A DNA stretch of 45,014 nt, from the IMG/VR virus record IMGVR_UViG_3300010399_000014, positions 1 through 45,014 of that record; one strand, given 5' to 3'. Made by a program: the position numbers and the translations under genes. The notes under the pieces are model-generated. The model was not told the origin of the DNA and made no database searches. It saw only the letters and a program-made list of their open reading frames with translations. The stretch comes from a virus. Shown one piece after another: positions 24,385-26,009 of this stretch (the first letter of the stretch is position 1; every line of letters begins with the position of its first letter).

Positions 24385-24966
24385 ATGCTCACAATCCCCG
24401 CCCACAAACTCAAAGCCGCGCTGACGCACTCTGCCGTTCGTGACATTCGCTACTACCTCAATGGCGTTTACCTGGAGGCTGCCGAGTCCGGCGATTTGCA
24501 CATCATCGCAACGGATGGACACCGTATGCTCTGCGGGCGCATTCCGGACGGCGCGGCGAATGCCCCGGATTTCAAGTCGGTCGTTATCCCGAGCGAAACT
24601 GTCAAACTGGCCGTGAGAGGCAAAGGCGATGTGGAATTGGCTTGGGCTGCCGGCGTTTGGCGTTTAGGTACGTATCTGTTCAAACCGGTCGACGGTGTGT
24701 TTCCGCCCTGGCGCCGCGTCATTCCGACGCTCGATCCGGCCGCGCCGCCGACGGATTGGGACTATACGTACCTGGATTCCGCACAAACAGCGCTCCGGCT
24801 ATGGACGGGACACAAAACAATGACTGTCCGCAAGCTGGATTGCGAAGGCAATTCCTGCGTCGTGGCTTGCTTCGATCCCGACGTGTTTTGCATCGTTATG
24901 GCGTTGTGGAATCACGGCGCGACAGTTATCGAACCGCCGTTCACACCTGCGGCGGCTCGCCAATGA
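24385..24966 (+). CDS. Half-size sliding clamp (DnaN-like)
   Basis: 193 residues from ATG 24385 (TAAGGAG ribosome site). The sequence matches the middle and third domains of bacterial beta clamp: SAVRDIRYYLNGVYLEAAESGD and HIIATDGHRMLCGRI align with the start of domain II, VVIPSETVKLAVRGKGDVEL follows, and TYLFKPVDGVFPPWRRVIPT matches the start of domain III. The first domain and most of the third are absent. It could form a different ring, load onto the phage polymerase, or act as a decoy for host clamp partners. It lies on the strand opposite to all surrounding head genes, with a coupled methyltransferase. Confidence 0.8.
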   Translation: MLTIPAHKLKAALTHSAVRDIRYYLNGVYLEAAESGDLHIIATDGHRMLCGRIPDGAANAPDFKSVVIPSETVKLAVRGKGDVELAWAAGVWRLGTYLFKPVDGVFPPWRRVIPTLDPAAPPTDWDYTYLDSAQTALRLWTGHKTMTVRKLDCEGNSCVVACFDPDVFCIVMALWNHGATVIEPPFTPAAARQ

Positions 24967-26009
24967 GCGCGTATTACAACGAAATCGAACCCTTTGCAGC
25001 CCAATGGCTGCGCAACCTGATCGCGGCGGGGCACATCGCCCCAGGCGACGTGGATGAACGGAGCATAGAAGATGTACGACCCGACGACTTGCGCGGATAC
25101 GCCCAATGCCATTTCTTTGCCGGCGTCGGCGTCTGGTCCTACGCCCTGCGACTCGCCGGCTGGCCCGATGACCGGCCTGTTTGGACGGGTTCCTGTCCGT
25201 GCCAACCTTTCAGCGCGGCAGGTAAAGGCGCTGGGTTTGCTGACGAGCGGCACCTTTGGCCGCACTTCCATTGGCTCATCCAGGAGTGCCGCCCTCCAGT
25301 CATCTTTGGAGAGCAGGTTGAAGCAGCGATTAAACACGGCTGGCTCGACCTTGTTCTAGATGACCTGGAAGGAAGTGGCTACGCCTTCGGGGCGACAGGT
25401 ATCCCTGCTGCGGGCGTCGGTGCACCGCATCCCCGCCACCGACTTTACTTCGTGGCCGACAGCAGCAGCCAGGGATTACAGGAGCGAATCGGCGACGGAC
25501 GAATTCAACAAGAAACGTTGGGAGCATCCCCGCGGCAAACCGCTGTCGGCAGTTGCCGCCTTAGCCGGCTGGCCGACCTGCACGGCGACGGACGCTCACA
25601 GGGGCGCGAAGGCCGCGCGCCCTTGGGACACCGGCCGACCGCTCAACCAGATTGTGGCTCTGGCCGCGTGGAATACACCAGCAGCCTCGGATGGAATGGG
25701 CGGAAAGCGCCCGCATCCGGACACATCGATGACGGGGCAACACCCCGACGGGCGCAAGATAAACATGGGGTTGCCCTCTCAGGTGCACCTGGGCTTCATC
25801 AACACGGAGCCGGCCCGATTAACGGCTTCTGGCGAGATGCTGATTGGCTCTTCTGCCGGGATGGAAAGTGGCGGCCAGTTGAACCCGGCACATTCCCGCT
25901 GGCTCATGGGGCTCCCGCCCGAGTGGGACGCCTGCGCGCCTACGGCAATGCCATCAACGCGCAAACTGCGCGCGTCTTCATCGAAACGGTAATGGCAGGC
26001 ACGCCTTGA
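24963..26009 (+). CDS. C5-cytosine DNA methyltransferase
   Basis: 348 residues, coupled to the clamp gene by ATGA. Motif [18 protein letters not shown] (51-67), motif [11 protein letters not shown] with the catalytic Cys at about residue 80, a motif VI position with GEQV instead of ENV, motif [15 protein letters not shown], and a C-terminal motif [10 protein letters not shown]. The region from residue 160 on is rich in Arg, Gly and Asp and is also open in a second frame (25360-25992). It probably modifies phage DNA against host restriction. The 3' end overlaps the convergent Mu F-like gene by 32 bp. Confidence 0.88.
25360..25992 (+). CDS. Overlapping second-frame protein (alternative methyltransferase C-terminal frame)
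   Basis: 210 residues read in the +1 frame inside the methyltransferase gene. Unlike ordinary shadow frames it carries segments known from independently annotated phage proteins: repeated WPT(A/C) motifs, a [18 protein letters not shown] stretch, and [19 protein letters not shown] followed by [10 protein letters not shown], which resembles the end of other cytosine methyltransferases. The main frame in the same DNA encodes [16 protein letters not shown] and a motif X. Both frames therefore look conserved. The ATG at 25360 has no clear ribosome site, so expression may need coupling or frameshifting. Recognition is from memory. Confidence 0.5.

Follow-up and report, generated by a model that had tools for sequence, protein, structure and literature searches.

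Can one stretch of phage DNA encode two conserved proteins in different frames and, if so, what does the second protein do? A cytosine methyltransferase gene in an IMG/VR virus record (IMGVR_UViG_3300010399_000014) raises this question. We analysed positions 1 to 45,014 of that record, a stretch of 45,014 nucleotides here called the window. A sequence-only reading of this DNA had proposed that the 3′ half of the gene is dual coding over more than 600 bp (25360–25992), its second product being either a separate protein or an alternative methyltransferase tail made by frameshifting. We conclude that the locus very probably encodes a two-subunit C5-cytosine DNA methyltransferase, the subunits of which overprint each other on one DNA segment.

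Two overlapping frames at the methyltransferase locus

Both frames carry what the sequence-only reading had seen in them. The 3′ end of the frame 0 gene, which we call alpha, encodes the 16-residue peptide and motif X (RLRAYGNAI) singled out there, and the +1 frame, which we call beta, encodes the WPT repeats and the 15-residue block. The 'independently annotated phage proteins' that it mentioned correspond to homologous loci read in the alpha or the beta frame. Over the 3′ half, dual coding stood, but its extent had to be redrawn: the whole beta span starts at an internal ATG (25072) and ends at 25992, in the +1 frame of the alpha gene, an overlap of ~920 bp rather than ~630. Position 25360 is simply the first ATG after a TAG, and both that stop and the N-terminal third of beta had been overlooked. 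The locus comprises the following features.

24963..26009, plus strand: alpha, a C5-cytosine methyltransferase of 348 aa in frame 0 (PF00145, phrog_363, M.HhaI-like catalytic core)
25060..25063, plus strand: GGAG Shine-Dalgarno sequence, 8 nt 5′ of the beta ATG and within the alpha R-S codons (from the sequence)
25072..25359, plus strand: beta part 1, +1 frame, 95 aa, from the conserved ATG to an in-frame TAG, over the alpha catalytic core
25357..25359, plus strand: TAG inside beta with an ATG directly after; the consensus has the Lys of GSTLYKLTWK
25360..25992, plus strand: beta part 2, +1 frame, 210 aa, the ORF of the sequence-only reading
25453..25476, plus strand: beta WPT repeat 1, WPTAAARD (from translation; consensus GWPTPxAxD)
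25570..25593, plus strand: beta WPT repeat 2, WPTCTATD (from translation and consensus)
25669..25692, plus strand: beta WPT repeat 3, WNTPAASD (from translation and consensus)
25879..25929, plus strand: beta motif-IX-like block, 17 aa (profile match to LNPAFPEWMMGWPTGW of single-chain C5-methyltransferases)
25920..25955, plus strand: alpha motif X, frame 0, including RLRAYGNAI; overlaps beta motif IX by 10 nt
25476..25940, plus strand: alpha stretch between motifs VIII and X, predicted disordered (mostly pLDDT <50), with no folded target recognition region (TRD)

Alpha begins at an ATGA that also holds the stop codon of the gene 5′ of it. That upstream gene (24385–24963, plus strand) matches PF02767, the DNA polymerase III beta sliding clamp central domain (1.1e-6), and PHROG 947 (processivity factor); its best PHROG match is 3007, labelled RusA-like resolvase.

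The pair is conserved across phages and prophages

Searching phage databases with the +1 peptide, as the sequence-only reading had suggested, matched the ORF from 25360 to phrog_31772 (4.5e-33) and phrog_1008 (1.3e-23). The +1 protein was found by tblastn in 196 phage records, 146 of them over at least 80% of its length. Among 327 loci gathered with either protein, alpha and beta are both full length and in +1 register in 311; the remaining 16 loci show a truncation or interruption, and beta is never present without alpha. Bacteria whose prophages carry these loci include Comamonas, Pseudomonas, Burkholderia, Brucella, Yersinia and Citrobacter, together with Desulfovibrio-like and other members of the Proteobacteria or Desulfobacterota. 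The pair also occurs in phages N15 and epsilon15 and, at a greater distance, in T4-like and Vequintavirinae phages, where the +1 frame is open over ~200 codons. In relatives, beta is ~300 aa long and overlaps a median of 87% of the alpha gene (5th–95th percentile 82–90%). Depositors usually annotate one frame; both are annotated in K1ind2 and PhiXhv-28, and mainly beta in PMG1.

Individual loci show further arrangements. Two phage loci with single-chain-like methyltransferases (L351 and L352) have LPTP repeats in the +1 frame and motifs IX and X in frame 0, another division of the TRD between frames. In L329 and L334 the TRD lies in frame 0, yet the +1 frame is open over a long stretch upstream of it and encodes a peptide, GSIEYSETWPKTGYMSGGRAFELPTS, that resembles the N-terminal part of beta and is possibly a remnant or a second overlapping gene. 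L082 and L154 are exceptionally long, with 501 and 532 open codons in the +1 frame, seemingly because the repeat region has expanded in both frames. Partial matches to the beta N terminus (query 16–145) occur on two Citrobacter amalonaticus plasmids (NZ_CP083652.1, 5019–5411; NZ_AP024586.1, 156497–156889) with no annotated methyltransferase there, one of them under a YadA-domain gene; they are possibly decayed beta copies.

We counted stops in the beta span of 260 distinct homologous loci with full-length alpha. The sequence-only reading had held that stops in most homologues would speak against coding, and these were not seen: the span is stop-free in 257. Synonymous resampling of alpha predicts 3.5 +1 stops per gene under its own codon usage and 4.9 under flanking-gene usage, and the +2 frame of the same loci carries 13 on average. 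The frame is thus open across the family but not throughout in the window itself.

A stop codon interrupts beta in the window

The one in-frame TAG in the window's beta stands in place of the conserved Lys in GSTLYKLTWK; on the alpha side, the change lies within a Leu codon (CTA). The other two loci with a stop in the beta span are L009 (TAG) and L324 (TAA near the end). Beta in the window may be made in two pieces by stop-restart, be read through, have been lost recently or owe its interruption to a sequencing error.

A real possibility, a little short of an even chance, is that this copy of beta is dead, the TAG being a fresh null mutation or an assembly error and alpha the only product. The stop itself points that way, as do the rarity of such stops (3 of 260 loci) and our search for a tRNA gene that might suppress TAG, which found none in the window. 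Against this, the conserved blocks of beta are retained on both sides of the TAG and most pairwise counts after it still show constraint, although single pairs are noisy; the ATG directly after the stop also suits stop-restart. A dead beta would concern the window copy only and is compatible with the two-subunit explanation for the family.

Alpha and beta carry complementary methyltransferase parts

Alpha matches PF00145 (2e-15) and phrog_363 (5.7e-90), and its catalytic core matches HhaI. We identified motifs I (FFAGVG), IV (PCQPFS), VI (GEQV), VIII (RHRLYF) and X (YGNAI). PCQPFS, with the catalytic motif IV PCQ of C5-methyltransferases, is invariant in alpha homologues. RLRAYGNAI aligns to motif X, with G328 and N329 invariant, and the alpha C terminus matches motif X of single-chain C5-methyltransferases with a profile E of 0.0027, weaker than the motif IX match of beta. 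In the AlphaFold model of alpha, the core scores mostly above 90, residues 172–326 are largely disordered and the motif X helix scores ~90. No folded TRD with motif IX is present within the modelled alpha chain, and the motif IX profile match falls in beta.

Beta corresponds to PHROG 1008 (profile match 7.2e-37 over positions 11–297 of 329, spanning 25087–25965 of the window with one TAG inside). The N-terminal part of its consensus reads GSTLYKLTWKxWxTPSGRSxSRLRASVRRTS and is followed by repeated GWPTPxAxD units and a conserved 24-aa terminal block. The repeats match the TRD of single-chain mycobacteriophage C5-methyltransferases (profile E 3.9e-7). The C terminus matches motif IX (LNPAFPEWMMGWPTGW) of single-chain enzymes (E 8.9e-5), a short match of 47 columns that scores above every scored column shuffle (60 run). 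In IrishSherpFalk, the phrog_1008 profile matches residues 194–390, the TRD half, of the single-chain methyltransferase (1.3e-57); in split systems it matches the second gene, both in Kampy (1.7e-79) and in YungJamal (7.4e-59). Beta alone is modelled poorly (mean pLDDT 61, pTM 0.29), which might be expected of a partner-dependent domain. Its sequence had no match in the PDB, and above-noise matches of its model in BFVD had very low TM-scores and were for the most part to phage methyltransferases or to proteins without a characterised role; the model being too poor, we dropped any claim about fold. Direct profile comparison detected no relation between beta and alpha.

By their motifs, alpha and beta together read as one complete C5-methyltransferase. 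Alpha would be the catalytic large domain, with motifs I, IV, VI, VIII and X, and beta would supply in trans the small domain missing from it, namely motif IX and the target recognition region with its WPTP repeats. As a heterodimer, with beta the likely recognition subunit, they would form an active methyltransferase acting on phage DNA, probably as protection against host restriction.

Beta might instead be a separate overprinted protein with another job, such as an inhibitor or regulator, alpha methylating alone. Dual coding and an internal start fit such a protein equally well, the library name of PHROG 1008 is no test of function, and beta alone gives no confident fold. We nevertheless consider this improbable: PHROG 1008 matches the TRD half of single-chain C5-methyltransferases, alpha is without a folded TRD or motif IX, the C termini of beta and alpha map to motifs IX and X of the same single-chain enzymes, and beta never occurs without alpha.

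Both frames are selected and beta probably has its own start

We measured selection in each frame across homologues, a comparison that the sequence-only reading had also proposed, using aligned blocks at least 40% identical from 56 independent homologue pairs. The +1 frame is constrained, with dNN/dNS of 0.557 [0.476–0.642] and dSN/dSS of 0.246 [0.183–0.310], whereas flanking-gene controls treated identically gave 1.24 and 1.70; dNN/dNS is the safer figure because dSS rests on few sites. Constraint is divided unevenly along the overlap. Over the core, alpha dominates (dSN 0.308 versus dNS 0.099), yet the +1 frame is still constrained there (dNN/dNS 0.71, dSN/dSS 0.235). Over the TRD, beta is more constrained than alpha (dSN 0.167 versus dNS 0.374), and the C terminus is constrained in both frames. 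Both frames are under purifying selection, above controls, and form a real, long and conserved dual-coding pair. The senior frame appears to differ by half, alpha over the core and beta over the TRD, with the other frame overprinted in each.

The start of beta is also conserved. Alpha's conserved ERSIEDV uses GAT at its Asp codon in 84% of 226 loci, compared with 40% of Asp codons in the same genes, and GAT with the next G creates the +1-frame ATG of beta. Between 4 and 16 nt 5′ of this ATG, 54% of 230 loci have a Shine-Dalgarno-like motif, against 15% expected from synonymous sampling. The motif is restricted to loci with the conserved ATG (124/191 versus 0/39, p=7e-16, a value that overstates independence since the loci are related). 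The 39 of 230 loci that lack this ATG require other starts, and many have nearby ATG or TTG codons. The conserved internal ATG, its linked Shine-Dalgarno motif and selection on the +1 frame well upstream of the earlier ORF together point to beta being made as a separate, internally initiated protein, the first of the two products that the sequence-only reading had envisaged; ribosomes would start it at the internal ATG with its own Shine-Dalgarno sequence.

The second, a tail joined to the alpha core by programmed frameshifting, would bring core, TRD and motif IX together in a single chain, and single-chain versions do exist in mycobacteriophages. It is very unlikely, and we rejected it: selection on the +1 frame extends over the core, 5′ of any shift point, instead of being confined to the region downstream, the conserved ATG and Shine-Dalgarno motif precede the +1 frame, and a shift without return would lose motif X. 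Least plausible of all is a non-functional +1 frame held open by GC content and the constraint on alpha protein: although chance stops are fewer in high-GC genomes and alpha codon usage already lowers the number expected, synonymous resampling (no stops in 257 of 260 loci against the 3.5–4.9 predicted), flanking-gene controls without such selection, the conserved start signals and the open frame in T4-like and Vequintavirinae phages rule out chance opening.

Comparison with known split methyltransferases

The nearest precedent, likened to the phage pair by motif layout and not by sequence, is M.EcoHK31I (YGGCCR). Its small subunit, beta, has 176 aa and lies within the large-subunit gene in a different frame, a nesting that the phage pair shares. 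As with alpha and beta, its large subunit holds motifs I–VIII and X and a smaller polypeptide holds motif IX (PMC3404938). The predicted TRD of M.EcoHK31I has been placed in the large subunit (PMC3404938), whereas the TRD-like repeats of the phage pair lie in beta and the middle of alpha looks disordered. M.EcoHK31I is a restriction–modification enzyme; the phage pair has a beta of ~300 aa and a phage host. M.AquI (CYCGRG) likewise has its catalytic part and its (distal) TRD with motif IX on separate chains (PMC3404938). Its second chain also has motif X, which stays in alpha in phages, and it is split without nesting, whereas the phage genes overlap over most of their length.

Mycobacteriophages offer the same parts un-nested. 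IrishSherpFalk gp71 combines in a single frame the methyltransferase core, the LPTPTxxDG repeats, LNPAFPEWMMGWPTGW and motif X. This single chain and the split Kampy gp78/gp77 and YungJamal gp7/gp6 carry LPTP repeats and a motif IX (LNPAFxEWMMGW) in the same order as beta; TRD, IX and X either share one frame or lie in a second gene that overlaps by 23 or 209 nt. The placement of the TRD varies across phages: it can share the frame of alpha, occupy a second gene or be nested in +1. The ShiLan domain resembles beta in being another protein concealed in an alternative frame of a phage methylase gene but is a homing HNH insertion element, unlike the enzyme subunit proposed here (PMC11855218). Escherichia phage K1ind2 has the same pair (ORF29/ORF28, 'Mte8-like protein'), a 930-nt methylase with a nested 798-nt ORF, for which we found the label only and no statement on function or dual coding. 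The literature searched (subscription papers and preprints being outside its scope) yielded M.EcoHK31I and M.AquI and no description of the phage family as dual coding. The phage pair would be a widespread variant of the split C5-methyltransferase rather than a separate category.

Discussion

How might such a pair have arisen? We lean slightly towards reciprocal overprinting, in which a single-chain phage C5-methyltransferase was split and its halves extended through each other's frame, so that ~1 kb encodes both; switching of the TRD between frames may be a way of evolving methylation specificity. Conserved nested overlaps as long as this one, ~300 codons, seem uncommon in cellular genes and in those of dsDNA phages.

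The pair sits in classical phages (N15, epsilon15 and K1-specific phages) and in prophages of many Proteobacteria, mostly with one frame annotated. If the two-subunit explanation is true, many 'DNA cytosine methyltransferase' entries would be half an enzyme, the other half being listed as a hypothetical protein or a second methyltransferase, and single genes, when cloned, would lack activity unless they retain the nested start. A naturally split methyltransferase would be of use as a tool, and the pair offers a natural, directly testable system for fitting two functions into one sequence.
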